Shown here piece by piece: positions 27,331-60,586 of a stretch of DNA of 64,000 bases. The notes beneath the pieces are model-generated. The model was not told the origin of the DNA. It ran no database searches and saw nothing but the letters and a program-made list of their open reading frames with translations. The position numbers and the translations under genes are program-made. Source of the DNA: Melioribacteraceae bacterium (GTDB lineage: Bacteria > Bacteroidota > Ignavibacteria > Ignavibacteriales > Melioribacteraceae); contig JALVFE010000035.1 in assembly GCA_027030245.1 (NCBI GenBank), positions 62,001 to 126,000 on the forward strand. Direction: 5' to 3'. The first letter of the stretch is position 1. Each line of letters begins with the position of its first letter.

Positions 27331-27380
27331 TGCTAAACCTCAAATAATTATTTAAATAATTATATTAAATTTAAAGTAAT

Positions 27381-30164: not shown

Positions 30165-30175
30165 ACCTTACTCAA

Positions 30176-31081: not shown

Positions 31082-31104
31082 TTAAATTTTTTTATACAAT
31101 ATTT

Positions 31105-32316: not shown

Positions 32317-32322
32317 ATTATT

Positions 32323-34312: not shown

Positions 34313-34358
34313 ATAAATATTTTAATCTTAATTTTCATTAATTATTTTTCAATATATT

Positions 34359-35335: not shown

Positions 35336-35373
35336 AAAATCAAGAATTTGCACCTTAAAAACGCGAGGTGCAA

Positions 35374-38691: not shown

Positions 38692-38823
38692 TTATTTTTC
38701 CAATAGTTTAAACATTTCTTTAAGTTCCGCAAATCCCTTGTAAACAACTTTTAAGGATAAATATGCAAACGATAGAATTGAAAATAAAATTACGATACCC
38801 CAAAGATATTCCCAGAAATTCAT
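38692..38823 (-). CDS. Small membrane protein coupled to the SSS symporter
   Basis: A 43-residue protein (starting MNFWEYLWGIVILFSILSFA, ending MFKLLEK) with one predicted membrane helix at about 5-27 and a short charged C-terminus. Its ATG overlaps the symporter's stop by 4 bp (ATGA), and a strong ggagg site (38831-38835) lies 7 bp upstream inside the symporter gene; both argue for real translation. Small partner proteins are known for several SSS-family transporters, where they are proposed to assist assembly or function. I recognise the arrangement, not the exact family. Confidence 0.75.
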   Translation of the reverse strand: MNFWEYLWGIVILFSILSFAYLSLKVVYKGFAELKEMFKLLEK

Positions 38824-43692: not shown

Positions 43693-45066
43693 TTAATTTC
43701 CGGGAATAATTAACGGCTCTCTTTCTTTCCAAAAACCCCTTGTAAAGTCGGGAAAGTCAACCGGTCTGCTTTTATTAGCTACGGAAATTTCACTTAATTC
43801 GGAAACAGCGCTAAGAGCCGCAGCATCATACACATCCATATCGGTAGGCGTTCCGGTAAGCAAAGCTTGAATCAACCGGTAGTCTTCAAGGAAATCCATT
43901 CCGCCGTGGTTAGCACTTTTAGCCAATTTCCCGATGTTTTTCCATAAGTCGTGTTGAAACTTATCTTTATACTTTTCCAGCGGTTCCCATTCGTGAGCCG
44001 GACTTAATCCTTCGATATGAATTCTATCGGGATAACCGATTGAGATGGCTTTTGTTCCTTGAATTAGATCAATTCTATTATAAGGTCTGGGCAAATTAGT
44101 ATCGTGAAACAAAGTGATGGTCATACCCTTAACCGTTTTAATCATACTTATATTAACGTCTCCAAGTGCATATTTTACTTTGGAGTAATAATGATCGGGC
44201 CCAAGATGTTTAACGGCGTATTCGTGTAAACCCCTTGATACGCTGCTCATTGAAACAAGATAATCGAACCGGTCGCCGCGGTTAATATTCATCGCATTTG
44301 CAATGGGACCTAAACCGTGCGTTGGATATAAATTACCATTTCTTTCAATAGAATGTTTAATCCGCCAATCGTTTTCGTAAGCTCCGCCCAATTTATGATT
44401 TCTCAAATCGTGCATATAACCGCCAACTCCGTTTATAATTTCACCGAAAATTCCTTTCCGGATCATATTCAATACCATTAAAGCCCGTTCGCTGTAATTA
44501 CAATTTTCCATCATAACACAATGCCTATTATGCTTTTCCGCGTTTTCAACCAATTGCCAAGCCTCGTCAATAGTTACTGCTGCGGGTACTTCTGTAGCGG
44601 CATGTTTCCCGTTTTTCATTGCAGTAACGCAAACCGGCACGTGCCATTCCCACGGCGTAGCCGTAAATACCAAATCCAAATCTTCCGTTTCACACATTCT
44701 AACGAAATCATATTCGCCCTTTGAATAGCCTGTTGGTTTTGGAAATCCGGCATCGGTAACCCACTTTTGGATTCTCTCTACTTTTTCCGGAATAATATCG
44801 CAAACCGCTTTAATTTCCACTCTGTCCATCTTCAAAAAATTTTTAACATGCCAAGAGCCTTGGGAACCAACGCCCACAAATCCGATTTTGACTTTTTCCA
44901 ATGGGGGTAATTTTGGTAAATGCGGTTTAGTAGGCAGATTTCTCGTTTTTACCTTAATTTCCTGGGGTATATTAAAACCGGTGATAGCGGCACCGACAGT
45001 TGCGGTAGCGCTAAGTTTAATAAATTCTCTCCTTTTTAATGAACCTTTACTTTTTTTGTTTTTCAT
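43693..45066 (-). CDS. Gfo/Idh/MocA-family protein, GH109-like glycosidase (second copy)
   Basis: 457 residues with a Tat-type leader (KRREFIK at 11-17). Rossmann motif GVGSQG, then PWEWHVPVCVTAMKNGKH, CNYSERALMVLNMIRKG, YMHDLRNHKLGG, RNGNLYPTHGLGPIA, FHDTNLPRPYN and the strongly family-typical SANHGGMDFLEDYRL. This copy looks closer to well-studied Bacteroides/Akkermansia GH109 alpha-N-acetylgalactosaminidases than the one at 11466. Export by Tat with bound NAD is expected. It is followed 9 bp upstream by the GH36 gene and 2 bp downstream by the DUF2271-like lipoprotein, so it sits deep in the operon. Confidence 0.87.
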   Translation of the reverse strand: MKNKKSKGSLKRREFIKLSATATVGAAITGFNIPQEIKVKTRNLPTKPHLPKLPPLEKVKIGFVGVGSQGSWHVKNFLKMDRVEIKAVCDIIPEKVERIQKWVTDAGFPKPTGYSKGEYDFVRMCETEDLDLVFTATPWEWHVPVCVTAMKNGKHAATEVPAAVTIDEAWQLVENAEKHNRHCVMMENCNYSERALMVLNMIRKGIFGEIINGVGGYMHDLRNHKLGGAYENDWRIKHSIERNGNLYPTHGLGPIANAMNINRGDRFDYLVSMSSVSRGLHEYAVKHLGPDHYYSKVKYALGDVNISMIKTVKGMTITLFHDTNLPRPYNRIDLIQGTKAISIGYPDRIHIEGLSPAHEWEPLEKYKDKFQHDLWKNIGKLAKSANHGGMDFLEDYRLIQALLTGTPTDMDVYDAAALSAVSELSEISVANKSRPVDFPDFTRGFWKEREPLIIPGN

Positions 45067-45075
45067 TATTAAAGC

Positions 45076-47142
45076 CTAATTGTCTTCAAATACTTTTAGT
45101 AACAAATAATCATTAAATTTTACGGGAACAAACTGCTTGGCTCCGGTTATTTTTTTTAACAATTTATCATTTACGTAATCAAAAATAAAATAATTTCTTC
45201 CTTTATCCAAACCTCTTAATTCCACTTCACCTTCAAAATTTTCCGAGTAAAAAGCATAAAACAAAGTATCGCCTTTTTTAATTACGTGCGTTTCGGGTTT
45301 ATCAAATCCGATATCGTAAAGCTCACCCAAATATTCGCCTTCCGGAAGTTTATGCTCTTCGTAAATTTTAATCCATTTTTTCCATTCCTTTTCCCGCTCG
45401 GGCGTCAAACTGATATCTCCGCTTTCAGTATTGAGATGCGAGCCGGGCGGCCAGACAAATTTAGTTCCCACAACACCGCCGACACCGATTGTGGATGCAA
45501 AATCATCCCCGCCTGTGCTCAGTTCCACATGATCTCCGTAATACGGTGCGGAACTTCCCATTAAAGCTTTGAATGTTTTTCCTTTCAATCTTATTTGCCA
45601 CGAAGATACCGGGTCGGAAGCAACAACTTGATTAAGATACGGAAGCATAAAAAAATTGTATCCCGTGCCACACGGACAAACCTCGACAACGCTTTCAGGT
45701 TTTAACTTTGTAACTTCCTCGTAAATTGTTTTGAAAAAAGATGGCATCGCTTCGGTGGATTCTTCCGGATATTTATGATGATGTTCATGATTATAACACG
45801 GCGGTGCGGCGTTTAGATGCTGCCCGTCTATTTTAAGTCCGTCGAATCCCCATTCTTCAATAAATTTATGCACCATTTTTTTTGTATATTCCAGAGTGGG
45901 TTTATATGCCGGACACAAATAATAAGCATCCCACCAGCTTATATCCTGGGGTTTTCCGTTTTTGTTAATCAGCAGCATATCTTTATGATTTTTTATCAAA
46001 TCCGTTTCCGGATCAACAGCCAAAGGCACCCACCAAAGTTTTGCTTTAAAACCCATTTTGTGAATTTTGCTAACCAGGTCTTTCATACCGGCTTCACCAT
46101 TGGGAAACTTCTCCGGATTAAGATACCAATCGCCCTCGGCAGTTTGCCAACCGTCGTCTATCACAACCCATTTAAGTCCTACATCTTTAACTTTCGGTAA
46201 TGCCGTGAGAATTTCTTCAACCTTAAAGTTTCTTTCATATCCCCAAGCGCACCAAACCGGTTCGTAAGCTGTTTCCGGTGCTTTTTTAATTTTCAATCCT
46301 TTCCTTTGCATTATTTCGGAATACATTTTTAACGTATGGAAGTAATCTCCGCGGTGAACTGCAACGAAAGTTGAGAATGTCTGTAAAGTATCGCCAGGTT
46401 CAAGGATAAAATCTTTGTTATACTTTACTTTTATTTCCACTCCATTAACCGAGCGGGAAACGGGAAGCGATACAAGTTTGGGAACGGTTTCAAGATGCCC
46501 AACCGCAATACCGAAATTTTTTTTCCAAACATCCACTACGGGTGTTCCGCCACCGTAATCGGTTGCATTCATTCCCAAATAATTTTCTTGCTTAAAACCG
46601 TAAGGAACTTTTCTAACCCAATCCGGTCTTTCTTCGTATGATGCATCTTGAAACGACCAAAACACTTCTGCGGTATCGTTTTGCGGGATTACGTAATGAT
46701 TATTTACCCAACCTGTAACTGAAACGGGAGTTTTGCTTTTATTAACATATTTTACGTTGGTAAAAATGAATTCCGGGTATTTGTTATCCGCCTTCGCCGT
46801 AAGGGTTTTTTCTATTTCAAATCCATCTAATTTACCCAAACCTGTAGCAACCAATTTCCTTCCGTTTTCATTATCACAATACCGGTAATTTTTTAATTTA
46901 AATTGATAAAGTTTCTTACTATTTATTAAAACATATTCCGATGGTATAAATTCTTCCTTGGTATGACAACTTGAATCATGTTTTATTATAATTCTTGAGT
47001 AAAGATTTGAGTCATATTCAACGGTAATAAGCGCGTTTTCTATTTTAACCGTTTGCGCATTTACAAAATTGCATTCGTGCGTTAATACTAACGGAATAAA
47101 TAATAAAGCCTTTAAATACATTTGAATAATTTTATTTTTCAA
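45076..47142 (-). CDS. GH36/melibiase-type alpha-galactosidase-like enzyme
   Basis: 688 residues with a signal peptide (ending NFVNAQ). An N-terminal beta-sandwich is followed by a TIM barrel with WVVIDDGWQ, LWWVPLAVDPET, the nucleophile Asp439 in LKIDGQ and the acid/base Asp510 in VASDPVSSWQIR, then a C-terminal beta domain. These are the clan D (GH27/GH36) hallmarks; alpha-galactosidase or alpha-N-acetylgalactosaminidase activity is expected. Start: the TTG at 47142 has a ggag five bases upstream and is kept; an ATG at 47121 is the alternative. Together with GH109 it suggests a glycan with terminal alpha-linked Gal or GalNAc. Confidence 0.88.
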   Translation of the reverse strand: MKNKIIQMYLKALLFIPLVLTHECNFVNAQTVKIENALITVEYDSNLYSRIIIKHDSSCHTKEEFIPSEYVLINSKKLYQFKLKNYRYCDNENGRKLVATGLGKLDGFEIEKTLTAKADNKYPEFIFTNVKYVNKSKTPVSVTGWVNNHYVIPQNDTAEVFWSFQDASYEERPDWVRKVPYGFKQENYLGMNATDYGGGTPVVDVWKKNFGIAVGHLETVPKLVSLPVSRSVNGVEIKVKYNKDFILEPGDTLQTFSTFVAVHRGDYFHTLKMYSEIMQRKGLKIKKAPETAYEPVWCAWGYERNFKVEEILTALPKVKDVGLKWVVIDDGWQTAEGDWYLNPEKFPNGEAGMKDLVSKIHKMGFKAKLWWVPLAVDPETDLIKNHKDMLLINKNGKPQDISWWDAYYLCPAYKPTLEYTKKMVHKFIEEWGFDGLKIDGQHLNAAPPCYNHEHHHKYPEESTEAMPSFFKTIYEEVTKLKPESVVEVCPCGTGYNFFMLPYLNQVVASDPVSSWQIRLKGKTFKALMGSSAPYYGDHVELSTGGDDFASTIGVGGVVGTKFVWPPGSHLNTESGDISLTPEREKEWKKWIKIYEEHKLPEGEYLGELYDIGFDKPETHVIKKGDTLFYAFYSENFEGEVELRGLDKGRNYFIFDYVNDKLLKKITGAKQFVPVKFNDYLLLKVFEDN

Positions 47143-47162: not shown

Positions 47163-49295
47163 TTAAAGAACTACAAAAAACTTTCCGGTTATTGAGCCAA
47201 TGTCTGACTGAATATGATAAAAATAGACTCCGGGTCCCACTAGTTGATTGAACTCATTATGCAAATCCCACGATTCTATACTCGGACTGATAGAACTCGA
47301 GCGATTATGATGTAAAGTTTTGATTAATTCTCCTGCCGAATTGTAAATACGTATTTCTGCCTTTTCGGGAAGCTGTGTAAACTGCACAATATGATTATTC
47401 GAACCTTGTTCCCAAATTTCGGCAAGATAATATGGATTCGGTACAACCTTAACATTCTCGAGACTCACCGTGGAAACGGGTGCATGGGGAACAATCTCCA
47501 CGGTATTGTTTTTTTCCGAAGGGTTGTTACTGAAACCGTTTTCCAAAGGACCTATTATCGCGTTACCCGAATCGTATGCAGCCACATAATACTTATATTT
47601 GATTCCGTTGATAACGTTATTATCTACAAAAACATTGACGGTATCGCCCGGAGAAAAGTATTTATACGAATCGTTTTCCGTAACGACTTTCCTGATTTGA
47701 GACCAATCGTCGTCACCCAAATAATACCATGCATATTCCGGTAATGAATTATAAAATCCTTTTATGCTGTCTTCCAAATCGTATTGGGCAAGGGGGACAT
47801 AATGTATTCCGCCTTCAAAATCTTTAAATGTTTGCGAGCCCCAAGTTAAACCACCGTCTTGCGACCTGTAAATTTTATAACCTTCGAACTCCGGGTCTTT
47901 TTCGCTTGCGGTACCCCAAGTCAAAACCACTTTTCTGTCGGAAGCCTGGGCTTCGAGCACCGGTGCCGGAGGTGCGTCTATTACTTTCCAATTATTATTG
48001 TATAATGCAATTGCCCTTTTAGCGTTAACTTTTATATTTTTTTCGTTTTTACCGAACACGGTTGCAAAAATTAGCGTATCCGCTTCACCAGGTTGCAAAG
48101 TAAAGGGTCCTGAACCAAGGGTTTGTAATCCGTCGGCTCCTTCCCCAACATAATAACCTTGCCCTCCTTCTTGTGCATCCGGCACACCATTATGATCGAA
48201 GTCGTCGTCAATTCCATCGCCGTCGCTGTCTTCGGGATCGTTAATATTCTCAACGTTCCATTGGAAATACCAGTCAGGTCTTGCACCGTTACCCGCGTTA
48301 GTCGTAGCCAGCATCCAAAAATGGAAAGCATCGTAAGTTTCAACTCTGTGCGAAGGTCCGGGCATTCTAAGTGCCACAACACCTCCGAAAGGAATTTGTT
48401 CCGGATCGAGAGTTCCTCCGAAAGGGCTTTCTTCGTATCCGTCGTCATCCGTTCCGTAAGCAAGTTGCAGAGAAGGATCGTAATAATGTCTGTCGGCATC
48501 ATAGCCAATACCTGGGTAGAATTCGGGTATAAAACTAAAATCGGCGTGAATGGCGACCCGCATATCCCTAATGGGCGAGGTTCCTATATTTCTAATTATA
48601 TAAACCCAAACTATAAAATCTTGATAAAGGGTTCCCTTCCAAGCCATTCCTCGGATAATCATTTGAGTTTTAAGAAAATTAGGATATACTTTTCCTGTTG
48701 CGGTAAGTTGATCGGTTCCGCCCCAGGCTTCCACAACCGAAAAACTTTCTTGGTCGGCTAATTGTTCACCGTTTGGACCGAAACCGGGCCAACCGGTTCG
48801 GGGATCGAATTTTATTTCATCATTTAGCACCGGATAGGTTTTGGGCCAATCGGAAGGCCACGTATCGGGATCGTCGCTCATCAACGCCTTATCGCCATTA
48901 ACGAATTGGGGATACGGGTAAAAATGTTCTTCATCCCAAAAGGCAGCGGGACCTTCGTCCAGAGTGGCATCACAGAACGCAACATAATCGTCTGCCGGGT
49001 TAGGCCAACCACCAACGGCGCCGGAATCTTGATCTATCGGCGCACCCACAACAACACCAACACCGGTTCCCCAACTTAAACCACTGCCGGAAGGGTATTC
49101 GAATGCTGGCTGCCGGGCAAGCGACATATTTTGTTGATTCCCGTTGCATAACAAACCGGTGTTATTAAATTGAGTACTGATTTTATTAATATCGAAAGTA
49201 TTCCACCGTTGGTATACCATAGGATTGTTTTGCGGGAAAGATATTTTCGCAGATAAAACAATTACTATAAACATCAGTATTTTTTTCGATTTCAT
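47163..49295 (-). CDS. Large secreted protein with T9SS-type tail, paralogue A
   Basis: 710 residues with a signal peptide (about 1-21, ending ISFPQ). The central part contains the acidic calcium-binding-like SDGDGIDDDFDHNGVPD (about 365) followed by EGGQGYYVGEGADGLQ and LQPGEADTLIFATVFG. A fibronectin-like segment (APPAPVLEAQASDRKVVLTW, EGYKIYRSQDGG) precedes a C-terminal domain starting VKVVPNPYY and ending FFVVL, a T9SS-type sorting domain variant. It is clearly paralogous to 50381, with a PorV-family gene in between. The N-terminal two thirds match no domain I recognise. Function unknown; likely a surface or extracellular protein. Confidence 0.75.
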   Translation of the reverse strand: MKSKKILMFIVIVLSAKISFPQNNPMVYQRWNTFDINKISTQFNNTGLLCNGNQQNMSLARQPAFEYPSGSGLSWGTGVGVVVGAPIDQDSGAVGGWPNPADDYVAFCDATLDEGPAAFWDEEHFYPYPQFVNGDKALMSDDPDTWPSDWPKTYPVLNDEIKFDPRTGWPGFGPNGEQLADQESFSVVEAWGGTDQLTATGKVYPNFLKTQMIIRGMAWKGTLYQDFIVWVYIIRNIGTSPIRDMRVAIHADFSFIPEFYPGIGYDADRHYYDPSLQLAYGTDDDGYEESPFGGTLDPEQIPFGGVVALRMPGPSHRVETYDAFHFWMLATTNAGNGARPDWYFQWNVENINDPEDSDGDGIDDDFDHNGVPDAQEGGQGYYVGEGADGLQTLGSGPFTLQPGEADTLIFATVFGKNEKNIKVNAKRAIALYNNNWKVIDAPPAPVLEAQASDRKVVLTWGTASEKDPEFEGYKIYRSQDGGLTWGSQTFKDFEGGIHYVPLAQYDLEDSIKGFYNSLPEYAWYYLGDDDWSQIRKVVTENDSYKYFSPGDTVNVFVDNNVINGIKYKYYVAAYDSGNAIIGPLENGFSNNPSEKNNTVEIVPHAPVSTVSLENVKVVPNPYYLAEIWEQGSNNHIVQFTQLPEKAEIRIYNSAGELIKTLHHNRSSSISPSIESWDLHNEFNQLVGPGVYFYHIQSDIGSITGKFFVVL

Positions 49296-49310
49296 TTTGC
49301 TTCCGAAAAA

Positions 49311-50366
49311 TTATAAATCGATTCTTAATGTAAATTGATTGAAATTCCCGAACACTCCGTAATTCAAGAATAAGTAATCCAAAACCAATTTCGTATTTAT
49401 GATATTTTCAAAATCTATTCCCAAGCCAAAGGTATACGTTACCTCATCGTAATTAAATTTATAGCCGCCTCTTAAGAAGAATGATTTGGCATAACCTAAT
49501 TCTGCCCCAACGTTATGGCGGACGTCGTAGTCTCTACTATCCAAGATATCGTAAGATACAAGCAGTGACCAATCGTTATTATTAATGAAATAGTTGGAAA
49601 TACCGAATCTAAAAAGCAACGGAATTTCCCAGTCCAGAGTAGTAAGTTCCGCCGGAATTTGTTTCCCGCTGGGGTTTCCGGGAACGGAATAAATAATAGA
49701 CAAATCCCTTCCTCCGAATTTCATTTTGGATCCGAAATTCGATAGGGTTGCCGCCAACCGGAGATTGTTATTAAAGAAAGAAGTTAAAAATACAGCTCCA
49801 ACGTCAATTCCAAATGCATCGGCACTGGCGTTGGCTATATTCTCGCGAATATACTTAATCTTTATTCCGAAGGAGAACCGGTCGGTTAATTGTCTTGCGT
49901 AACTTAAACCGAATGCAAAATCGCTAGCCGAGAAAAACCGGCCCGTTCCCTTTTGATTATAAACCGTTGTTTCTTCGATTCTTCCGTAATCCAAAAATTG
50001 TAAGTCTGCACCAATGCTGCCTATTCCTTCGAATTTAAATACCGATGCAATATAAGAGTTACGAGTGTCAACCAACCAATTCATAGTTGAAAAAGCGAAG
50101 GAAATATTTTTTTTAATTCTGGTTATGGCTGCAACGTTCCAGTACAATGCCGTGGGATCATCCACGGTGGAAATTGCGGCATCCCCCATTGCCATAGGTC
50201 GCGCACCAACGCCTATTTTAAGAAAGTTTGCGGCAGAGGTACCCGAATAATCGACTTCTTGCGCATTCGTATTAATATGTAAACCGCAAAGCAACCATAA
50301 AACACTACTTAAATAAATTGATTTAATTAAAATACCCTTATCGAAATGCATTTTATTAAACCACAT
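49311..50366 (-). CDS. PorV/PorQ-family outer-membrane protein
   Basis: 351 residues with a signal peptide to about residue 36. After it comes the family-typical SGTSAANFLKIGVGARPMAMGDA and DDPTALYWN, then alternating amphipathic strands of a FadL-like beta-barrel. PorV shuttles T9SS cargo to the sortase PorU in Bacteroidota; additional PorV-like proteins are frequent in Ignavibacteria and often lie beside large secreted proteins. Located between two T9SS-type paralogues (15 and 14 bp gaps), it may be a dedicated partner for these rather than the housekeeping PorV. Other T9SS genes are not in the window. Confidence 0.85.
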   Translation of the reverse strand: MWFNKMHFDKGILIKSIYLSSVLWLLCGLHINTNAQEVDYSGTSAANFLKIGVGARPMAMGDAAISTVDDPTALYWNVAAITRIKKNISFAFSTMNWLVDTRNSYIASVFKFEGIGSIGADLQFLDYGRIEETTVYNQKGTGRFFSASDFAFGLSYARQLTDRFSFGIKIKYIRENIANASADAFGIDVGAVFLTSFFNNNLRLAATLSNFGSKMKFGGRDLSIIYSVPGNPSGKQIPAELTTLDWEIPLLFRFGISNYFINNNDWSLLVSYDILDSRDYDVRHNVGAELGYAKSFFLRGGYKFNYDEVTYTFGLGIDFENIINTKLVLDYLFLNYGVFGNFNQFTLRIDL

Positions 50367-50380
50367 AATTTTAGCTCCCT

Positions 50381-52585
50381 TTAGAGAATTACAAAAATTT
50401 TACCGGTTTTAGTACCGGCCGGCGATTCGATATAGTAGAAATACACACCCGAAGACGTTAATTGTTTGAATTCGTTTTTCAAATCCCACTTTTCTATGCT
50501 GGAATTGCTTTTGTGGTAAAGTGTTCTTATCAGTTCGCCACTACTATTAAAAATCTTAATTGTTGCTTCGGCAGGCAAACCCGTAAATTGAATTATATGT
50601 TCGTTCCTTCCGGTTTCCCAAATTTCCGAAACATAGTAAGGATTCGGCACAACTCTTACGTTTTCCAAATTGTTTTTCGCTTGCGGTATCTCGGGTTGCA
50701 CGGCAACCGTATTATTAAATTCGCCGGGGTTAGAGCTGGCACTGTTTTCAAGAGGACCAATAACGCCGTTGCCCGAATCATAAGCGGCGATATAATACAT
50801 ATAGTTTACTCCGTTTATAACATCGTTATCGATAAATACATTAACAGAATCACCGTTTTTATAAAAACTTAATTTTTTCCCATTTAAATTAAACCCCTTA
50901 ATCGAATCTTCTTCCACTTCAAACCTTAAAGGATTCCATGAGTCATTACCCAAATAAAACCAAGCGTATTGGGGTAGGGTTCTGTAGTTTCCTTTTACCC
51001 CGTCAACCAGATCGTATTGTTGGAGAGGAATATAATGGACTCCACCTTCGAAATCGTTAAAACTTTCACTTCCCCAAGTTTGCCCGTTATCTTGCGAACG
51101 GTAGATTTTATAACCTTCAAACTCGGGGTCTTTTTCGCTTTCTGTTCCCCAAACGAGTATTACTTTACGGTCGTCGATAAAAGCTTCCACTTTTGGGGCG
51201 GGTGGCGCTTTAACAACCTTCCAATTGTTTTGATAAAGGGATATAGCACGTTTGGCATTGGTTTTCAAATCTTTTTCGCTCGAGCCGAAAACGGTTGCAA
51301 AAATTAAAGTATCCGCCTGCCCCGGTTGCAGTGTAAATTTACCGGAGCCGAGCACTTGCAGTCCGTCTGCGCCGTCGGCTAAATAATATCCTTGTCCACC
51401 TTCTTGAGCATCGGGAACGCCGTTATGATCGAAATCATCGTCAATTCCGTCGCCGTCGCTGTCTTCGGGATCGTCTAAGTTCAACAAATTCCATTTGTAG
51501 TACATTTCGGGGTCGCCCCCGCTACCGGAAGCCGTAGTTTGCCCTTTCCAGAAATGTGTTGCATCGTATGATTTAACTTTTCCATCACCACCCGGCATTT
51601 GGAGAGCAACCACGCCGGCCCATGCAATTTTCTCAGGAGGTAAAGTTCCACCTCCAACGGGGTCTTCTTCGTAGCCGTCATCATCCCAAGCGTAAGCAAG
51701 TTGTAATTTGGGATCGTAATAATGCCTGTCGGCGTCATAACCTATTCCGGGAATAAAAGCCGGAAGAAAGCCGAAATCGGCATGAATTCCCATTTGTAAA
51801 TCGACAATGGGTTTTGAAGTCGGATTACGAATTATATACACCCACACGATAAAATTTTCGTATAAAGTTCCTTTCCACGCAAGTCCCCGCATTATTAATT
51901 GAGTATGCAACCAGCGGGTTTTCGAATTACCTGCACCCAGTTGATCCGTTCCGCCCCAACCATACATTACACTAAAAGTTTCTTGATCGGCCACTTGTTT
52001 ACCATCCGGACCGAAACCGGGCCAACCGGTTTCCGGGTCAACTTTAATTTCCACGACCGGTAAACCGTTATTTTCTATATTTGTACCGTTAATACCGTCT
52101 TCGGGATAGTAATTGGGTAAAGATGCGGGCCATTTATCCGGCCAAGAAGAAGGATCGTTGCTTACACTGGCAACATTAGGATTTACAAATTCGGGATAAG
52201 GAGCGAAATGTTCCTCGTTCCAAAAATCCGCGGGTCCTTCGTCCATCGTACCATCCAGATAAGGGAAATTATCGGGATTAGTTCCGCCTACGACTTCCGG
52301 GTCTTGATTTGCCGGTGCACCAACGACAACCGCTATGCAAGTACCCCAATCCAATCCGCTGCCTTGCGGATATTCGAATGAGGGCCGTCGTGCCAATGCA
52401 TAACTTTGATTGTTACCATTGCATAACATACCGACGTTATCGAAGGTCGTAGCAACTTTATTAACATTCATCACATTCCAGCGTTTATACAACATCGGGT
52501 TATTTTGCCCCTTTACTTTATTGATATTTAAAATCAAAAACAATCCGGTAACAAATATGGTTAGCCGTTTCATCTTTAATTCCAT
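50381..52585 (-). CDS. Large secreted protein with T9SS-type tail, paralogue B
   Basis: 734 residues. It begins with a signal peptide (MKRLTIFV.. to KVKGQ, from M5; the ATG at 52573 is an alternative start) and has the same order of segments as the protein at 47163: the opening NNPMLYKRWNVMNVNKV, the EEHFAPYPEFVNP stretch, SDGDGIDDDFDHNGVPD, the LQPGQADTLIFATVFG strand, the EGYKIYRSQDNG segment and a C-terminal VRVVPNPYYVSEIW to KIFVIL sorting domain. The first ATG overlaps the TonB-receptor stop by 10 bp. Paired duplication around a PorV gene suggests that the two proteins form one surface system. Confidence 0.75.
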   Translation of the reverse strand: MELKMKRLTIFVTGLFLILNINKVKGQNNPMLYKRWNVMNVNKVATTFDNVGMLCNGNNQSYALARRPSFEYPQGSGLDWGTCIAVVVGAPANQDPEVVGGTNPDNFPYLDGTMDEGPADFWNEEHFAPYPEFVNPNVASVSNDPSSWPDKWPASLPNYYPEDGINGTNIENNGLPVVEIKVDPETGWPGFGPDGKQVADQETFSVMYGWGGTDQLGAGNSKTRWLHTQLIMRGLAWKGTLYENFIVWVYIIRNPTSKPIVDLQMGIHADFGFLPAFIPGIGYDADRHYYDPKLQLAYAWDDDGYEEDPVGGGTLPPEKIAWAGVVALQMPGGDGKVKSYDATHFWKGQTTASGSGGDPEMYYKWNLLNLDDPEDSDGDGIDDDFDHNGVPDAQEGGQGYYLADGADGLQVLGSGKFTLQPGQADTLIFATVFGSSEKDLKTNAKRAISLYQNNWKVVKAPPAPKVEAFIDDRKVILVWGTESEKDPEFEGYKIYRSQDNGQTWGSESFNDFEGGVHYIPLQQYDLVDGVKGNYRTLPQYAWFYLGNDSWNPLRFEVEEDSIKGFNLNGKKLSFYKNGDSVNVFIDNDVINGVNYMYYIAAYDSGNGVIGPLENSASSNPGEFNNTVAVQPEIPQAKNNLENVRVVPNPYYVSEIWETGRNEHIIQFTGLPAEATIKIFNSSGELIRTLYHKSNSSIEKWDLKNEFKQLTSSGVYFYYIESPAGTKTGKIFVIL

Positions 52586-55116
52586 ATTCTTATTCCCAAT
52601 TGAATTGTTCTTCCCGGTCCGTACATAGCAGGATTATCGGTGTAATCGTGCGATGTTGCGGGGTTTGCATCGTCTCCGGGAATTCCGGAATCGGAATAAA
52701 CCCACCAAACGTTTCTGTCGTTCGTTACGTTTACTATTTGCATAAATATTTGTTGTTTTAGTCCTAAAATATTGAAGTTTTTAAATATGTTTATGTTAAA
52801 TTCATGTATCCAAGGACTTCTTTCGCCGTTCGGATCAAATGCGGAACGGGTGTACGGGAATCCGGATGAATAACTTCCGTAAATAGAGAAACCGAATCCG
52901 CTGCTGTGTTTGTAATAGATATTTCCTCTAAACGAATGCGGTTGATCCCATGCGGCCGGGAAAGTCCTGGCTTCGTCGGTCTGCATTTCGAATAAGAGTG
53001 AAGTGCTGACCAGCGTTTTGGAATATGTATAATTGAAAAAGGCGGAAAAGTTATCCGAAAAATGCTTTTTAAGCGAAACCTCTATCCCTTTCACCGTTGC
53101 GTAATCGATATTTCCGAGTTTTGAAAATCTGTGTCCGTCTTTGGTTTCACTCGTTTGAGTACCTATCAAATTACTGCTTTTCCGGTAGAATGCCGTAAAA
53201 TCGGCAGACAAAACCGGCGAGAGCATCGTTTGTAATCCGAATTCATAATTGGTGGTTTGCTCGGGTTTTATTTCCGTAGCGGCTATCGGCGTATTCTCCA
53301 ACTGCGGATTAGGCCGGTAAACCCCTTTAGAAGCCAAATAATATGTACCTTGAAATACTTTGAAATAATTGGGAAATTGATAATACTGACCATATCCGAA
53401 ACGTATTGCTGCTTTTTCGGCTACAGGAAAGCTGATCCCCAAGCGGGGTGTAACATATATTTCTTCTTTTGCCCTTTCCAACGGTGCTGAGAGATCCGTA
53501 AGATCGGCTAAATTTATCAATACATCCCGCTTAGTGTCACTGTAATCGAAGCGGACACCCAAATTGATTATCATTCCCATATCTTCAAATTCCATCTTTT
53601 CGTTTACATACCCGCTGATATGAATGGGGTGATAATCGTAATCTTCCAAAACCCCGAACCCGTCTGGATTTCTACGCGCCAATTTTGTTTCCAATAATTC
53701 ATAACTTGCACCGGCGGAGAGATTATGAATTTTATTTATTTGCCATACATAATCCAGTTGCAGTGCTTTACGCGCAAATTTTGTATCGAAATAAACCCAA
53801 TCTTCTCCCGTGATGGAAAACTCAGCCGTTCCCGTTTGCGGTAAAACATTATATAATTGCGGATCATCGTAAACCCTTGAACGGAAACTACGCTTATAAT
53901 CTTCTAAAGTTAAAACTATAAAACTTGAAGGGTTAAAAATATAATTGATTTTAGCGTAAAGAAGTTGGTTATTCAATTTTACCCTTGGTGTCCCGTAAGG
54001 ATTATACTTGAAATAATGATTATACACTCCCCTGTTGGATTTCGAATAAAAACCTCCTATGGAAATTTTCAACGGTGCAACCGGATGCCAAATTATTTTT
54101 GCGGTATTAAACTGGGTATCCAAATATTGCATGGGAACTTTTTCGGGTGTGCCGGATTTGTCCCTTCCTTCGCTATTAACGTAATTCGGATAAATATAAC
54201 CGTAGATATACCCGTCCGACGTATAAGTACGGTTAGCAAACATAATACCGAGTTTATTATAAAAAGGCAGCGCGGTGGAAAAATAAACTTCCCCGCTGTA
54301 TGTGTTGTGCGATTGGGATTTTATTATATTATCGGTAAACCCCTTGAAACCGAATTTAGGACTCAAATTAACTTGGTTTCCCAAAGAAACATTAACAACG
54401 CCGGACATTGCTTCGCCGTATTTGGGAAGAAACGTGCCTGTGTATGTTTCCATGGAATTGATAATTAATTCGGGTATCTCATCGATATAAAATCCGCCCC
54501 AAAGCTGGTCTACAATATTCACCCCGTCGTAAAGATACAACGTTTCGTTTTCCCTGCCGCCTCTAAAATGCAAACCATCCGATGGTATCGTGGCAAATTG
54601 CCCGAATGCGGCTAAAGATTCCACCGGGCGCGTTAAAATATTTTTAACAATACCCGCTTGTTGGGTAAGCAGATCTTGGACATTCAATTTAGGTATCCTC
54701 TCAATTTCGGCGGCAGTGCGCGTTTGGATTTTACCGGTTAAATCTTTTTGGATAGGCGGGGTTTTATAATCTACTACCGTTACTTCCCCCATTTGAACTG
54801 CTTCTTGGGATAATTCAAATTTTATTTTTGTAGTAAGATTGGAAATAACTTTCACACCTTTTATAACTTCGGTTTTGTAACCGACCATTTGTGCTTTAAC
54901 ATTATATACGCCGGGTGATAAGTTAAGAATTATAAAAGTCCCGTCGTCTTTAGTGGCGGCTCCCACCAACAAATTTTCAACTATGATATTACAACCCGGT
55001 AAAGGTTCGCCCGAATCTTTATCGGTTACTTTCCCGATGATTTTTCCGGTCTGTGCATAAGCAACCGTTGCGATACCGATAATTAACAGACATGTTAAGA
55101 GTAATCTTTTAATCAT
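52576..55116 (-). CDS. TonB-dependent receptor with carboxypeptidase-regulatory domain
   Basis: 846 residues. Signal peptide (about 1-22), CarboxypepD_reg-like domain (about 25-105, GKVTDKDSGEPLPGCNI, MVGYKTEV), a plug domain (about 125-240, with NVQDLLTQQAGI, HFRGGRENETLYLYDGV) and a barrel ending GRTIQLGIRIWN. Likely imports oligosaccharides or other complexes across the outer membrane. Unlike a SusC, it has no SusD neighbour; instead it is followed by two T9SS-type proteins and PorV, and preceded by a propeller lipoprotein. That set recurs as a possible surface complex. It lies 42 bp after the lipoprotein gene. Confidence 0.92.
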   Translation of the reverse strand: MIKRLLLTCLLIIGIATVAYAQTGKIIGKVTDKDSGEPLPGCNIIVENLLVGAATKDDGTFIILNLSPGVYNVKAQMVGYKTEVIKGVKVISNLTTKIKFELSQEAVQMGEVTVVDYKTPPIQKDLTGKIQTRTAAEIERIPKLNVQDLLTQQAGIVKNILTRPVESLAAFGQFATIPSDGLHFRGGRENETLYLYDGVNIVDQLWGGFYIDEIPELIINSMETYTGTFLPKYGEAMSGVVNVSLGNQVNLSPKFGFKGFTDNIIKSQSHNTYSGEVYFSTALPFYNKLGIMFANRTYTSDGYIYGYIYPNYVNSEGRDKSGTPEKVPMQYLDTQFNTAKIIWHPVAPLKISIGGFYSKSNRGVYNHYFKYNPYGTPRVKLNNQLLYAKINYIFNPSSFIVLTLEDYKRSFRSRVYDDPQLYNVLPQTGTAEFSITGEDWVYFDTKFARKALQLDYVWQINKIHNLSAGASYELLETKLARRNPDGFGVLEDYDYHPIHISGYVNEKMEFEDMGMIINLGVRFDYSDTKRDVLINLADLTDLSAPLERAKEEIYVTPRLGISFPVAEKAAIRFGYGQYYQFPNYFKVFQGTYYLASKGVYRPNPQLENTPIAATEIKPEQTTNYEFGLQTMLSPVLSADFTAFYRKSSNLIGTQTSETKDGHRFSKLGNIDYATVKGIEVSLKKHFSDNFSAFFNYTYSKTLVSTSLLFEMQTDEARTFPAAWDQPHSFRGNIYYKHSSGFGFSIYGSYSSGFPYTRSAFDPNGERSPWIHEFNINIFKNFNILGLKQQIFMQIVNVTNDRNVWWVYSDSGIPGDDANPATSHDYTDNPAMYGPGRTIQLGIRIWN

Positions 55117-55158
55117 TTTGTTACCCTGTTTTTAATCAAATTTATTTTTTACTCCTAA

Positions 55159-56547
55159 TCAATAATTATTTTTACTAACCGCAATATATTTCAAACTTCC
55201 GGAAAGTTTAGCCTCGGTTAAGGTTTTTAATGTTTTAGTTTCAATAATTTGAACCGTGGTATCATTGGGAACCACGGCATAAATCAGTTCATTAGCGGCG
55301 GTTAATCCCAACTTGTCGATATCTTTATCCCAAACTTTAATTTCCGATATCGAAAGATTCTGTACATCCACTTTCATTATTCCGCCAATGTTTTCTTTTC
55401 CTACTTTTTTAAAAAATGCTTGATAGTAAAAATTATCTCCCATTATACCGTCGGTAACATACGGATTGCCGGTCTCCAAAACTTGTGCTACCTTATCTGT
55501 TTCGGCATCCAGAATTACAATTTTATCGGTTCTGTTTTCGGGTAAGAATATATATTTACCATTATTCGAAATTTCGATATCGGCAGCTTTATTATCCGTC
55601 AATACCGAATCCAGCGTGTAATTATTATCAAAATCTTGTGCGTCAACCACTTTAACTTCTTTTTTGGAACTTGAATAAAAATAAAGCTTACCGGTTAAAT
55701 TACTGTAAACAACATCCTTCGGTTTGAATCCGTCGGCGAAAGTATAAGTTTCGAGCGCAGTTAGCGAAGCCAAATCGATTACGGTAAATGATTTTTCGGA
55801 AGTATTGGTAACGTAAGCTTTATCACTGCTGAAACCAATGTTTGTGGGACCTAGTCCGACATCGATGGTTTTAATAATAGAGAAAGACTGCGGATCGATT
55901 ACCGTAACCGTTCCGGGGATGGTTTTCAAATTTACCATAAACAAATATTTGCCCAACGGCGAAAATTCTATTGCAGCGGTTTGATAATCTTCCGTTGTTG
56001 CGTTAACGTATAAACTGTCTTTATAAACATTAAGGTCGCCAATCCTGTAAATAACTTGCTTATTTGCCTTATCCCTTACAAAAACATAGGGGAAACCGTT
56101 TTCGGAATATTTTCCTTCGGTAAAAAACCATGCGGTTACAGGAACGTCTTCTTCGTTCGGGGAAATCATTGACATACCGTTTATGTTTCTAACTGCTCCG
56201 CTAAGCGAAACCGTATAATATTCGGCTTGCATGTAATTGGTATTCGGAGTAAATACAACGACGGTATCGGATTCAGCAGCGTAAGAAAATTTTCCCGCTA
56301 TTTTTCCACTAACACTTTCCACCTTAAAGTTATCCGGGAAAGTCGACAAATCCATAACCCAATTGAATTTCATTTCGATTGGTGCATCGACCGGGAAAAC
56401 CAAATTATTTTTATCGATTGTTCCGAATGAAACAAACGAAGGACGCGTATTGGGAACCGGCTCCGGCGGTAATCTATCCGGAATACAACTGCTTAACCCA
56501 AATATCAACACCAATAAAATAAAATTCTTATTGATCATTCCAAGCAT
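55159..56547 (-). CDS. Beta-propeller lipoprotein with Ig-like N-terminus
   Basis: 462 residues. A lipobox (GLSSC) near residue 21 marks a lipoprotein. An SbsA-like Ig domain (about 40-150, with FNWVMDLSTFPDNFKV) is followed by YVTN/YncE-type beta-propeller repeats, such as LFMVNLKTIPGTVTVIDP, YVTNTSEKSFTVIDLASL, IFLPENRTDKIVILDAE. Such propellers typically bind proteins, peptides or substrates at the cell surface. As the gene lies directly before the TonB receptor in the operon, it may act as its surface-exposed partner in place of a SusD. The exact role is unknown. Confidence 0.8.
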   Translation of the reverse strand: MLGMINKNFILLVLIFGLSSCIPDRLPPEPVPNTRPSFVSFGTIDKNNLVFPVDAPIEMKFNWVMDLSTFPDNFKVESVSGKIAGKFSYAAESDTVVVFTPNTNYMQAEYYTVSLSGAVRNINGMSMISPNEEDVPVTAWFFTEGKYSENGFPYVFVRDKANKQVIYRIGDLNVYKDSLYVNATTEDYQTAAIEFSPLGKYLFMVNLKTIPGTVTVIDPQSFSIIKTIDVGLGPTNIGFSSDKAYVTNTSEKSFTVIDLASLTALETYTFADGFKPKDVVYSNLTGKLYFYSSSKKEVKVVDAQDFDNNYTLDSVLTDNKAADIEISNNGKYIFLPENRTDKIVILDAETDKVAQVLETGNPYVTDGIMGDNFYYQAFFKKVGKENIGGIMKVDVQNLSISEIKVWDKDIDKLGLTAANELIYAVVPNDTTVQIIETKTLKTLTEAKLSGSLKYIAVSKNNY

Positions 56548-56628
56548 TGTAATACCTTTAAATAGTATTAAATTAGACTTTTACAATCTAAATTGGGGCG
56601 CAAATTATGCGTTTGCGCCCCTCCGAAA

Positions 56629-58308
56629 TTATTTCAACAGCATCATTTTTTTGGACACAACAGTATTACCCGAAGTAATTTTGTAAATATACATTCCGGA
56701 CGAAAGTTGATTTCCACTATCGTCGGTTCCGTTCCAACGTATATTTTTTACTCCCGCCGGCAATTCTTTTTTATTTATAAGAGTCTTAACCTTTCTACCC
56801 AAAACGTCGTAAATTGCAATTGTAACAATTTGTTTTTCCGGAAGCGTAAAATGGATATTAGTAGAAGGATTAAACGGATTAGGATAATTGCTTACCAATC
56901 CGAAACCTTTAACTCTACTCAAATCATTACCGCTTTCTTTTACCGAAGTGATAACAGCTTTATCGGCCATTTTATGAACCGAAGGACCGGAGATAAAATT
57001 GTAATTCAGGCAATAATAAATTCCCCCTTCCGTTCCGGGTGCGCCTTCCCAAATAGTATTGGGGAAGTATTCTTCGTTATCCCAATTTTCGTTGCCCACA
57101 ACATAAACCCAAGGTCTTATATCCGTACCGGCATTAATAAACGAACGTGCCACGGACAATTCAACGGCATTATCCTCGTCGTTCTTGGCAAAAGTTACAA
57201 AAGCTCCCGGGACTTCCGCAAACTCTTCGAAAGCGCCTGCCCAATCGGCAACATATCTCCACAGCGGAACTTGGTTCGAGGTGCTATCGGGATTTAATGC
57301 GGCACTTAGATCGATCATATAATCTACCGGTAAGCGCCAAAAGCCGCTGTAACCCAAACCGGTTGTATCGCCCCAGTTTACATCGAACATAATTTGAAAT
57401 GCGGATGCATTGGGATAATTAGTGTAAATACCGCTGAACGTTGCGGAAGGATCGATATCAATTCTCATATAAAAATTCGTTGAATCGCTAGTGACGTAAA
57501 TATCCTTCAAATCGAATTCCGGACCTGTTGGTTGGTCGCCTAACTCTTCTGCAATTTCATCAACATCAGCGGCAGGAATTGATGCCCAATCCAAAAGATC
57601 GCCGTCAATTTGAATATCGGACATAATTTCGGTTCCGTGCGTTTGAATAACCGAACCGCCATACCAAAAATCATATTTCAGCATGTAATCGCCGCCTTCG
57701 GTAGGAAGTTGATCTGCGCCGTCCGTCCACTGAAAATCCGCAACCGAGTAAACCCAAGGTCTGAATTCCGTTCCAAAATTTACCTTGTCGCGGGGAATTG
57801 CAAATTCCACGGCATTCCTTTCGTCGTTAATTCCCAAAGCCAAAGTATCGAGCGGCACAAATTCACCTTCTGCATATGTAGGCATTCTTCCGCCTGTATA
57901 CTTGTAAAGAATAGCAAACTGCATTTGCTTTGTTGTATCCGCCACTAAATTCACATAGTAATTGTAAGCATTATTCCACCAACCCCAATCGAATCCTGTT
58001 GTATCACCGATTTCGGTATCCATGTACATTTCGAATACGGGCGGATTTGTATAGTTGTAAAAATTGTCGAAGCTTGCCGCATCGTTCATATCAATACGAA
58101 CGTATACGAACGACGTATCATGCGTTATGTAAAGATGTTTTAAATCAAAATCCGGATAAGCGGCAAGATCGCCTACGGTTTCTTCGATGGGAGCTTGATC
58201 CAATGGGGATATATCAGCCCAATCAAGCATGTTACCGTCAATCTCAATTTGTGCAAATGAGATCGAGAACATTGCGATAAGAAACAAAAAAGTTATAAGG
58301 TATTTCAT
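56629..58308 (-). CDS. T9SS protein with two DOMON/CBM9-like repeats
   Basis: 559 residues: signal peptide (about 1-19), two tandem repeats of roughly 210 residues (about 20-230 and 235-455), and a T9SS type A tail with SNYPNPFNPSTNI. Each repeat opens with IEIDGNMLDWADI or IQIDGDLLDWASI and continues through FDLKHLYIT/FDLKDIYVT, FYNYTNPPVFEMYMDT/PNASAFQIMFDV and GDTTGFDWGWWN/GDTTGLGYSGFW, so they are clear internal duplicates. The pattern fits a DOMON/CBM9-like sugar- or haem-binding fold. A very good ribosome site, ggaggtga, lies 5 bp before the ATG. Probably a surface carbohydrate-binding protein. Confidence 0.8.
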   Translation of the reverse strand: MKYLITFLFLIAMFSISFAQIEIDGNMLDWADISPLDQAPIEETVGDLAAYPDFDLKHLYITHDTSFVYVRIDMNDAASFDNFYNYTNPPVFEMYMDTEIGDTTGFDWGWWNNAYNYYVNLVADTTKQMQFAILYKYTGGRMPTYAEGEFVPLDTLALGINDERNAVEFAIPRDKVNFGTEFRPWVYSVADFQWTDGADQLPTEGGDYMLKYDFWYGGSVIQTHGTEIMSDIQIDGDLLDWASIPAADVDEIAEELGDQPTGPEFDLKDIYVTSDSTNFYMRIDIDPSATFSGIYTNYPNASAFQIMFDVNWGDTTGLGYSGFWRLPVDYMIDLSAALNPDSTSNQVPLWRYVADWAGAFEEFAEVPGAFVTFAKNDEDNAVELSVARSFINAGTDIRPWVYVVGNENWDNEEYFPNTIWEGAPGTEGGIYYCLNYNFISGPSVHKMADKAVITSVKESGNDLSRVKGFGLVSNYPNPFNPSTNIHFTLPEKQIVTIAIYDVLGRKVKTLINKKELPAGVKNIRWNGTDDSGNQLSSGMYIYKITSGNTVVSKKMMLLK

Positions 58309-58354: not shown

Positions 58355-60586
58355 TTACTTTAAAAGAACAATTTTTTTAATGAACTTACGCCTGCGTGTT
58401 TCTAATCTGAAAAAGTATATACCACTGCCGGCTTCTTCGTTAAACAAATTTCTCCCGTTCCAAATGATGCGGCTATTTCTAATTTCGTTTTGAGTAAACT
58501 CTTTAATCTTTTTACCGTTAATATCGTAAATGGCGGAACCGATAATTTCTTCGTCAAATTCCGGAATGATAATATTTACAAAACCATTGAAAGGATTCGG
58601 ATATGCTTCTATTTGAAATTGCCCGGGTAATTTACCCTCTGCCGGTTCTTCCACCGACGTTATAACAATAGAATATTGATAACTTTCGGTTTGATAACTG
58701 TCCGGTGCATAATCATCGTCAACATTTTCGTCGTTGTCGTTAATATTGAATACCACACCTATTACCCGGCTGGTGTGTATGTTTAATTGTGAAAACGGAA
58801 TAGCTAATTCCACACGCGAAGATTCTGATGTTCCTTGGGCGTAAACGGTTTCCCCGGCATAACTCCAATTCCATTCACCGTTGGTGCCTGCATATTTCCA
58901 CAAACTGCTGTTCTCTACCATGTAATCAAAACCGCTGTAACTACCACCGCTGTGAAAGCCTGTTGCGGTATCGTTATCGGTATCGATAAAAACATGATAA
59001 AAATATTGCTGGGAAAAATTGCTTGCGGTTTTATAACTGAAATAAACTTCGTCGTTTGATGAAGTCATCCAAAGATCGAGAAGATCTACGTTTGAATTTA
59101 ATGCGTCTCCGGCATTTTCTTCCAATGGTGGTTTATCAAGTTTATAGTTATCAGACCAATCACCGAAATCGCCATCGATAATAATTTGACCGTTTGAATC
59201 GGGGGGATTCACTCCACTTGCAAAAAGTTCAAAATAATTGTCCCCTGTGTAATTATCTCCTGAGGCGCCGGAGTTTATTATTACTTGATGTAGCAAATTG
59301 TTATAGCCTGTAGAGTCTTCCCAAACCGATTCATTCGCAAGCCGGATTGCATAATCTTTTCTATCGTGTAAATTTTTAATCGTATCGGGTAAAAATAACA
59401 ATACGTCATAAACACCTTCCGGCATTGTTTGTTTTATTCCGCCTTCGATGTTAACAGCGGTTGTATCGCCAGAAAACCAAAATCTTGGGTCAACGCCGGT
59501 AACAAGTTTGTATTTCGCTTTTGTAGTTGTGTTACGCAAAATTATTTCAAGACCGCGCGGGTTATAAGGATTTGCAAAACCGGAGTTTTCAACATCGAAC
59601 GAAAGGGAAAAAATTCCACCCGGTTTAACGCTATCTACAACGGTTGCTTTTACAAGCGAAAATCTGTATCCCAATCTCTTTTTAATTTCTTCCATGCAGC
59701 CTTCGTTTACCCAACCTTGTAAAACATCGGGATGATAATCTTTATTAAGAACCGACCAGTGCATTCTGTTTAAATCGATTAACGCGTTAGAGCACCCGGA
59801 ATAACTGCTTGGATTGCATGTTTCGCCGCCCTGCGGAACAAACCTGTTATCTTGATTGAGATAATTCTTATCACCTTCGATATCATCGCTAAGGTACGTT
59901 CCGTAATCTGTTGCGCTCGCTAAAAAGCAATCGTTGTGTGCACCGGTTCTTGCTTTTTTTGTTCCGCTAAATGCTTCGGCTAGAGTTAACGGATTATTGT
60001 CTTGAAATATCTTTCTTTTGTAATCGGGTGTTCGGATAACCACCGGACGCTCAACCGGCAGGGCGTCCAACAATGCAAACAGCACGGTTCGCCTGTCGTT
60101 AGTATTATTAAGATGATGCGTAGAATAATACCATTCGCCCCATGCTCCTATAAAACCGGCTTCCATATATGCAATTACGTCGTAGTGCTTTTGTAAAACA
60201 GGCTTTAATTGATTTATGTGCATCAATATCGTATCCAAAGCTGCATCCTCACCATCAATGTCATGAGTGTAAGAAAATCTTATTACGAGCTTTACCCCTC
60301 CGTTCCGGGCGTTAACAAGATCATTTTCAACCGTGGTCAAAAGGCTATCTGAGAGAAGGGTGTTTCTGAGTTGAGGTATCGTATAAACACGGTGAATAAC
60401 GCTTATATTTTGAGCTTTAACGCTGCTAATGAAACTTTGTGTAAGAGGAGAATAAGAATCGGCGGAAAATCCCCGCTCCGGATTCCTGAAATTTTCATTG
60501 CTCGGGTTGTAAATCAAGGTTGATTTTGGTTGAGCAATAGTTAAATGGGCAAAAATCAGAAATATTATTGTTAATATTTTTGTCAT
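58355..60586 (-). CDS. T9SS-secreted DUF4874/DUF4832 protein with CBM-like domain
   Basis: 743 residues: signal peptide (about 1-18), DUF4874 (about 20-190, with NFRNPERGF, VIHRVYTIPQLRNT, KLVIRFSYT and YMEAGFIGAWGEWYYS), DUF4832 (about 200-450), a DOMON/CBM9-like domain (about 465-640, GQIIIDGDFGDWSDN) and a T9SS type A tail with EAYPNPFNGFVNI. DUF4874/DUF4832 form a TIM-barrel pair resembling glycoside hydrolases; a GEWY segment with a nearby Glu could hold the active site, but the activity is unproven. It lies 46 bp before the two-repeat protein and only 1 bp after the beta-helix gene. Confidence 0.82.
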   Translation of the reverse strand: MTKILTIIFLIFAHLTIAQPKSTLIYNPSNENFRNPERGFSADSYSPLTQSFISSVKAQNISVIHRVYTIPQLRNTLLSDSLLTTVENDLVNARNGGVKLVIRFSYTHDIDGEDAALDTILMHINQLKPVLQKHYDVIAYMEAGFIGAWGEWYYSTHHLNNTNDRRTVLFALLDALPVERPVVIRTPDYKRKIFQDNNPLTLAEAFSGTKKARTGAHNDCFLASATDYGTYLSDDIEGDKNYLNQDNRFVPQGGETCNPSSYSGCSNALIDLNRMHWSVLNKDYHPDVLQGWVNEGCMEEIKKRLGYRFSLVKATVVDSVKPGGIFSLSFDVENSGFANPYNPRGLEIILRNTTTKAKYKLVTGVDPRFWFSGDTTAVNIEGGIKQTMPEGVYDVLLFLPDTIKNLHDRKDYAIRLANESVWEDSTGYNNLLHQVIINSGASGDNYTGDNYFELFASGVNPPDSNGQIIIDGDFGDWSDNYKLDKPPLEENAGDALNSNVDLLDLWMTSSNDEVYFSYKTASNFSQQYFYHVFIDTDNDTATGFHSGGSYSGFDYMVENSSLWKYAGTNGEWNWSYAGETVYAQGTSESSRVELAIPFSQLNIHTSRVIGVVFNINDNDENVDDDYAPDSYQTESYQYSIVITSVEEPAEGKLPGQFQIEAYPNPFNGFVNIIIPEFDEEIIGSAIYDINGKKIKEFTQNEIRNSRIIWNGRNLFNEEAGSGIYFFRLETRRRKFIKKIVLLK

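Follow-up and report, generated by a model that had tools for sequence, protein, structure and literature searches.

A recurring receptor, cargo and PorV-family trio as the probable outer-membrane arm of an amino-sugar operon in a Melioribacteraceae bacterium

What do a TonB-dependent receptor, a propeller lipoprotein, a PorV paralogue and two large cargoes of the type IX secretion system (T9SS) do together when five closely packed genes encode them? We addressed this question for a 64,000-nt stretch of DNA from a Melioribacteraceae bacterium (GenBank assembly GCA_027030245.1, contig JALVFE010000035.1, positions 62,001 to 126,000), hereafter the window. An initial annotation of the window had recognized these five open reading frames and their tight spacing; family searches upheld the identities, and all five genes lie on the minus strand (Table 1). 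They are transcribed in the order lipoprotein, receptor, cargo B, PorV-family protein and cargo A, with intergenic spacings of 42, -10, 14 and 15 bp. The best explanation of the whole, which we favor with some reserve, is that they form the outer-membrane arm of an operon for the utilization of a glycan of the N-acetylgalactosamine (GalNAc) type, and that this arm is built on a recurring trio of receptor, cargo and PorV-family protein.

The order receptor, cargo, PorV occurs eight times in the source genome. Among loci of many phyla, gathered solely by cargo resemblance, the exact order was also found at 50 of 62 PorV sites, a few of which duplicate one genome. These loci place the trio in Calditrichota, Fidelibacterota (Marinimicrobia), WOR-3/Stahlbacteria, KSB1, Delongbacteria, Ignavibacteriota and Bacteroidota; the labels Deltaproteobacteria and Caldisericaceae on metagenome-assembled genomes (MAGs) probably reflect mis-binning or mislabelling. 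The gene right after the receptor, which is the place of susD in susCD, usually encodes a T9SS cargo. Judged from gene content and order, the minimal unit is receptor, cargo and PorV, and the lipoprotein and second cargo are optional. The five genes had been proposed as a unit: a conserved unit was indeed found, but the set does not stand free, as it lies inside a larger amino-sugar operon and two of its members can be missing. Two other loci of the same genome deserve mention. At L041:1948-13291 a trio is followed by glycoside hydrolase family (GH) genes, a GH94 phosphorylase and a GH2, suggesting a beta-glucan version of the module. At L043:6257-16895 lies a second cargo-PorV-cargo set with very divergent proteins (1037 and 1056 aa), in which two cargoes independently flank a single PorV.

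The PorV paralogue of the window matched the PorV family (NF033709) with 206 bits against a cut-off of 90 and failed both canonical equivalogs (94.6 of 250 bits for PorV and 98.5 of 220 bits for PorQ). There are 13 PorV-family genes over the cut-off in the source genome. Canonical PorV is encoded on a different contig, as the neighbor of the PorU sortase, and canonical PorQ is found elsewhere in the genome, so the window gene is an extra copy. In a maximum-likelihood tree, 57 trio PorVs formed one group apart from canonical PorV and PorQ (support 98/89); the deepest forks are unsure because of a long trio branch (L043) and of two long rows that had no assignment. The sole solved relative of the paralogue was PorV 6h3i_F (E 3e-11), and no PorP match appeared among the listed family matches of the barrel.

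Family searches recognized a single domain in cargoes A and B, the T9SS sorting tail. TIGR04183 was passed by both (25.1 bits for A and 32.0 for B against 23), and PF18962 was failed by both (18.4 and 20.8 against 27). On the type B model CHU_C, cargo B scored 24 of 27 bits and cargo A had no listed match; membership in the type B/SprF group was rejected on this score and because the barrel belongs to the PorV family. The trio tails read VVPNPY[YV], a longer spacer and then I.F..LP...IRI...G, whereas ordinary tails of the same genome read YPNPFNPTT.I.FSIP. With leave-one-out profiles, trio tails scored 96-131 bits on their own class versus 17-30 on the ordinary model (113 versus 29 for cargo B). 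On the trio-tail model itself, B reached 133 bits and A 126. Exactly ten tails of the source genome reach 125 bits, all of them beside PorV genes, and the next best reaches 58; since these ten seeded the model, it is the drop from them to the next tail that is informative. The ordinary-tail model fits about 97 tails of this genome. In other genomes, a PorV gene was present within two genes of 55 of the 82 trio-type tails versus 13 of the 67 ordinary tails, in loci collected by cargo resemblance and not as a random sample. Cargo relatives or trio-type tails with no PorV within two genes were seen at L103, L106, L108, L110-L112 and L115-L119, and are chiefly a 1055-aa Fidelibacterota family.

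Distances between trio members were compared within the source genome, which keeps species history constant. Over its eight trios, PorV and tail distances were correlated with r=0.82 (exact p 1e-4) and still with r=0.75 (p=0.01) once a near-duplicate was removed. The correlation was r=0.87 between PorV and receptor and r=0.85-0.89 between receptor and cargo, and similar values were obtained with 59 trios. Across genomes, PorV-family copy number followed that of trio tails (rho 0.81 and 0.90), the highest PorV-family counts being lower bounds of at least about 8. Trio tails were absent from most Bacteroidia that have one to three PorV-family genes. The initial annotation had suspected a specific pairing of this PorV with the two cargoes. 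A clade of its own, a tail class of its own and co-divergence all argue in the same direction, and we consider a dedicated PorV-cargo pairing quite likely on these comparative grounds.

A common N-terminal region, a calcium-binding-like motif and a VVPNPYY tail had also been pointed out in the two cargoes. Both proteins do hold DPEDSDGDGIDDDFD and VVPNPYY tails, but their likeness is not confined to the N-terminus, as they are 64% identical along their full length. The calcium-binding-like stretch is largely preserved over 20 homologues, with D372, D375, D379, G380 and I381 invariant. A predicted structure of cargo B, with a predicted local distance difference test (pLDDT) score of 83, gave matches of low template-modeling (TM) score to GH94/GH116-type enzymes, Fn3 arrays and PorU in Foldseek, and a sequence search of the PDB gave just weak Fn3 and PorU-tail matches. 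The N-terminus resembles sugar-binding sandwiches at low TM score, which is no more than a hint of carbohydrate binding.

Conservation of the gene set beyond its source genome had been named as a test of the unit, and such conservation was found by searching 146 genomes of the order and reading the neighborhoods. Close relatives of the cargoes were present in 12 of the 146 genomes, the source genome counted in, and the lipoprotein in 11, which are nearly the same genomes. The five-gene set occurs in about 18 other genomes together with the hydrolase and the upstream secreted protein, in two arrangements. One is that of the window, lipoprotein-receptor-B-PorV-A (G083, G135, G065, MAGs labelled Calditrichota and others, and on split contigs G087 and G109). 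The second arrangement, receptor-(cargo)-PorV-lipoprotein-cargo, was seen in G115, G001, G068, G014, G085, G094 and others. Most cassettes are accompanied by the upstream T9SS protein, the DUF4832 protein and the GH36-like hydrolase, and that in L080 by PfkB and GatY too. Cargoes in first and second position form separate lineages inside each subfamily, which makes A and B old specialized copies. In several relatives, cargo A and the hydrolase are separated by an additional protein of about 484-509 aa (L071:4543-6003, L072:14994-16448, L075:4679-6133 and L080:14688-16217); it has no Pfam or NCBIfam match and is absent from the window.

The view that this is not a classical SusCD system was borne out, as the set holds no SusD/RagB lipoprotein and the receptor scored 59 bits over its N-terminal part on the SusC/RagA model TIGR04056, whose cut-off is 368. 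A single SusC/SusD pair passed the cut-offs in the source genome (G000:C20:75045-79114); it includes the only PF07980 match and lies on a different contig from the window. The receptor reached 28.4 of 599.7 bits on the B12 receptor model TIGR01779, and a riboswitch search of the window found none. These two results and the amino-sugar context led us to reject cobalamin uptake. Turning to the lipoprotein, its lipobox Cys21 is invariant in 13 homologues and its predicted structure (pLDDT 88.7) shows an Ig-like domain and a propeller. Profile and Foldseek searches matched propellers generally, including BtuG alone and BtuG complexed with BtuB. This protein had been thought to occupy the position of SusD. 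Propeller lids do exist (BtuG, XusB), but this one was detected in the cassette family of the window only, where about half of the cassettes place it behind porV; it was therefore rejected as a universal SusD substitute. It also diverges faster than the rest, its identity being 24-29% as against 38-46% for receptor and PorV.

The five genes belong to a single run of about 20 same-strand genes, which extends from position 38820 to past the window end, with gaps of at most 81 bp on both sides. Downstream of the module follow the hydrolase, the GH109-type enzyme, a small protein, the nucleotidyltransferase, the kinase of aminoglycoside phosphotransferase (APH) fold, one more protein and the symporter. 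Upstream, past the window, are an EamA transporter, a GatZ/AgaZ-like subunit and an AgaS-family isomerase, and a divergent AgaR adjoins the 5' end of the run. The AgaR repressor model was passed with 297.9 bits (cut-off 260). The PF01636 match and operon order would fit a NahK-like role for the kinase. This run looks like an amino-sugar catabolic operon with GalNAc as the likeliest candidate; that the substrate is an amino sugar of some kind is likely.

Table 1. Features of the gene run in the window, in order of transcription.
Feature	Position	Strand	Evidence and remarks
PfkB-type sugar kinase	63186..63902	-	Full gene 322 aa, reaches past window end
Class II aldolase, GatY/KbaY-like	62375..63196	-	PF01116 276 bits; NCBIfam class II aldolases including tagatose-bisphosphate
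Parallel beta-helix protein, ordinary T9SS tail	60588..62366	-	Family searches
DUF4874/DUF4832 protein, ordinary T9SS tail	58355..60586	-	Pfam; conserved in relatives
Secreted protein, ordinary T9SS tail, directly upstream of module	56629..58308	-	TIGR04183 47.7 bits; homologues in most relatives' cassettes
Propeller lipoprotein (signal peptide, lipobox Cys21, Ig-like Big_5 domain, beta-propeller)	55159..56547	-	Pfam Big_5 and YVTN repeats
TonB-dependent receptor, trio gene 1	52576..55116	-	Pfam CarbopepD_reg_2, Plug, TonB barrel
T9SS cargo B, trio gene 2, trio-class C-terminal domain at about 50381-50683	50381..52585	-	TIGR04183
PorV paralogue, trio gene 3	49311..50366	-	NF033709
T9SS cargo A, specialized paralogue of B, trio-class C-terminal domain at about 47163-47465	47163..49295	-	64% identity to B
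Melibiase-like glycoside hydrolase (GH36-like; GH31-like)	45076..47142	-	PF02065 68 bits; in most relatives' cassettes
GH109-type enzyme, apparent twin-arginine translocation (Tat) signal	43693..45066	-	PF21252 Glyco_hydro_109_C 208 bits
Sugar nucleotidyltransferase-like protein	42090..43004	-	PF00483
APH-fold kinase	40978..42099	-	PF01636
Sodium:solute symporter, final gene of run	38820..40298	-	PF00474; gap before next same-strand gene

A 10-pair hairpin, GGGGCGCAAACGCATAATTTGCGCCCC, is found at 56595-56621 on the minus strand, within the 81 bp that separate the lipoprotein gene from that of the upstream T9SS protein. It could be an attenuator or a processing site dividing the upstream genes from the surface module, and such sites occur at chance level in the region. 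A promoter and terminator scan showed no excess versus shuffles. The window holds a second sugar cluster at 24340-35135 on the minus strand, which encodes an AgaR-like DeoR regulator (236.6 versus 260 bits), a SIS isomerase, a transporter of the major facilitator superfamily, a ROK kinase, a GH2-like protein and a TonB receptor with no PorV or trio cargo adjoining. The two sugar clusters are separated by open reading frames resembling transposases or integrases (35368-36581, plus strand).

How would these parts work together? In the mechanism that we propose, the cargo would be exported by the general T9SS and passed to its cognate PorV paralogue, not to the general PorV. The paralogue would retain the uncleaved tail, so that the cargo is anchored at the surface next to the receptor. 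The cargo, here A and B, possibly aided by the propeller lipoprotein, would capture oligosaccharides for TonB-driven import and hence do a SusD-like job. The GH36-like and GH109 enzymes, the symporter, the kinase and the Aga-type enzymes would then process the sugar. A cargo acting as receptor partner fits these data because the cargo usually follows the receptor, because the genome has one SusCD pair and because susCD was scarcely detected in carbohydrate gene clusters of Ignavibacteriales (PMC10576277). Nevertheless, we put direct partnership of cargo and receptor at slightly short of an even chance, and physical capping of the receptor by the cargo is the least certain step.

Several observations weigh against this proposal. 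The distances show trio modules duplicating and diverging as units, which is no proof of contact. The general type A model still recognizes the trio tails, and 27 of the 82 outside trio-type tails have no PorV within two genes, partly owing to contig ends and partly to a Fidelibacterota cargo family encoded by itself, so that local pairing is not obligatory. Foldseek suggested that the N-terminus of the cargo is related to the GH94 supersandwich, but profiles gave this no support. As for the operon, the AgaS and GatZ models stayed under strict equivalog cut-offs (353.7 versus 529 bits for the AgaS family and 540 versus 569 for agaZ_gatZ; PF08013 was passed). Finally, other trios adjoin peptidases, ion transporters and carbohydrate-binding module (CBM) proteins. 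With such mixed neighbors the trio is not tied to glycans, and a purely glycan role for all trios was rejected. The trio is probably a general uptake platform, of which the window copy would be the amino-sugar version.

Other explanations can be given for the same genes. The PorV copies might be interchangeable shuttles multiplied for dosage, with the cargo an ordinary type A protein, cleaved by PorU and covalently attached, and co-location reflecting co-regulation. The TIGR04183 matches and the trio-type tails that lack a neighboring PorV speak for this explanation, but the separate PorV clade, the separate tail class and co-divergence within a single genome do not, and about 97 ordinary tails are served without extra PorVs adjoining; we find it improbable. 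Slightly less improbable, and still unlikely, is the suggestion of the initial annotation that the propeller lipoprotein is a BtuG-like lid in the place of SusD and the T9SS proteins are separate adhesins or glycan binders. Propeller lipoproteins do cap BtuB and XusA (PMC10404256, PMC13142918), the structural and profile matches include BtuG, and the gene immediately precedes the receptor in the window. However, no such lipoprotein was detected at the other seven trios of the genome or at trios beyond the cassette family, its position varies and it diverges faster than the rest as described above, and its likeness to BtuG is that of any propeller.

The cargo and PorV might instead constitute an adhesin or surface layer for attachment to polymer particles or cells, linked to the uptake receptor by co-expression only. 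The cargoes are secreted, large and made of several domains, with Fn3-like modules and a calcium-binding-like motif, and SprF-SprB is an adhesin pair (PMC9143113), but the fixed adjacency to one receptor lineage and the co-divergence of receptor and cargo suggest a functional link to the receptor, and we give this explanation a small chance, a little below that of multiplied shuttles. Import of a cofactor such as vitamin B12 in the manner of BtuBG would account for the resemblance of the propeller to BtuG, yet the receptor score on the B12 model (28 of 600 bits), the window free of riboswitches and the amino-sugar operon make it very improbable.

An outer-membrane arm built on the trio can be compared with several known systems. 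In SprF-SprB and PorP-PG1035 (PMC9143113), a PorV-like barrel retains the tail of its cognate cargo at the cell surface, and so it does in PorQ-PorZ, where PorQ keeps the uncleaved tail of PorZ (PMC10202324). As in PorP/SprF systems with type B cargo (PMC9143113), a FadL-type barrel and proposed anchor is encoded beside its T9SS cargo, with multiple paralogous pairs per genome; unlike there, the barrel is of the PorV family, the tail is of its own class nearer to type A and a TonB receptor is part of the set. The PorQ-PorZ/PorV attachment complex (PMC10202324) shares a PorV-family barrel with a type A-like tail, but the trio PorVs form their own clade away from PorU, and are multiplied, probably cargo-specific and tied to nutrient loci. 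Bacteroidota TonB receptors can work with surface partners such as SusD, BtuG and XusB (PMC10404256, PMC13142918). SusCD and other polysaccharide utilization loci likewise combine a TonB receptor and an adjacent surface-protein gene in a sugar operon with hydrolases and a regulator; the window set differs in lacking SusD, in a receptor below the SusC cut-off, in a partner that is T9SS-secreted and not lipid-anchored, and in including PorV. In BtuB-BtuG and XusA-XusB (PMC10404256, PMC13142918) a propeller lipoprotein is also encoded near the TonB receptor, whereas here the receptor is not BtuB-like, the lipoprotein is optional and has an extra Ig-like domain, and T9SS cargo and PorV are found in a sugar context. 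The AgaR, AgaS-, GatZ/AgaZ- and GatY-like genes recall Aga (N-acetylgalactosamine) operons, but a symporter, GH109 and an APH-type kinase replace the phosphotransferase system, and the trio would add an outer-membrane step.

For Melioribacter roseus, a single SusCDE operon is described in the genome paper; a receptor-PorV-cargo unit does not appear in the paper on Caldithrix. We found no description of such a unit in the literature searched, outside whose scope lay most subscription journals and preprints, in line with the earlier impression that it is undescribed. The ingredients are each known; their combination with a PorV clade and a tail class of its own appears to be new. Because SusCD is reported as scarce in carbohydrate gene clusters of Ignavibacteriales (PMC10576277), and with one SusCD pair versus eight trios in this genome, the trio is a strong candidate for polymer uptake in widespread and mostly uncultured phyla. 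It is conceivable, though we propose this tentatively, that a T9SS-exported partner, anchored through an uncleaved tail of its own class in a dedicated PorV and joined with receptor and PorV in one complex, represents a third kind of TonB-receptor lid beside the lipid-anchored SusD and BtuG across phyla of the Fibrobacteres-Chlorobi-Bacteroidetes (FCB) group, replacing SusCD there. Our results further suggest that the PorV family, usually represented by the general shuttle and PorQ, has another large branch, made up of carriers specific for their cargoes, to which a class of tails corresponds.

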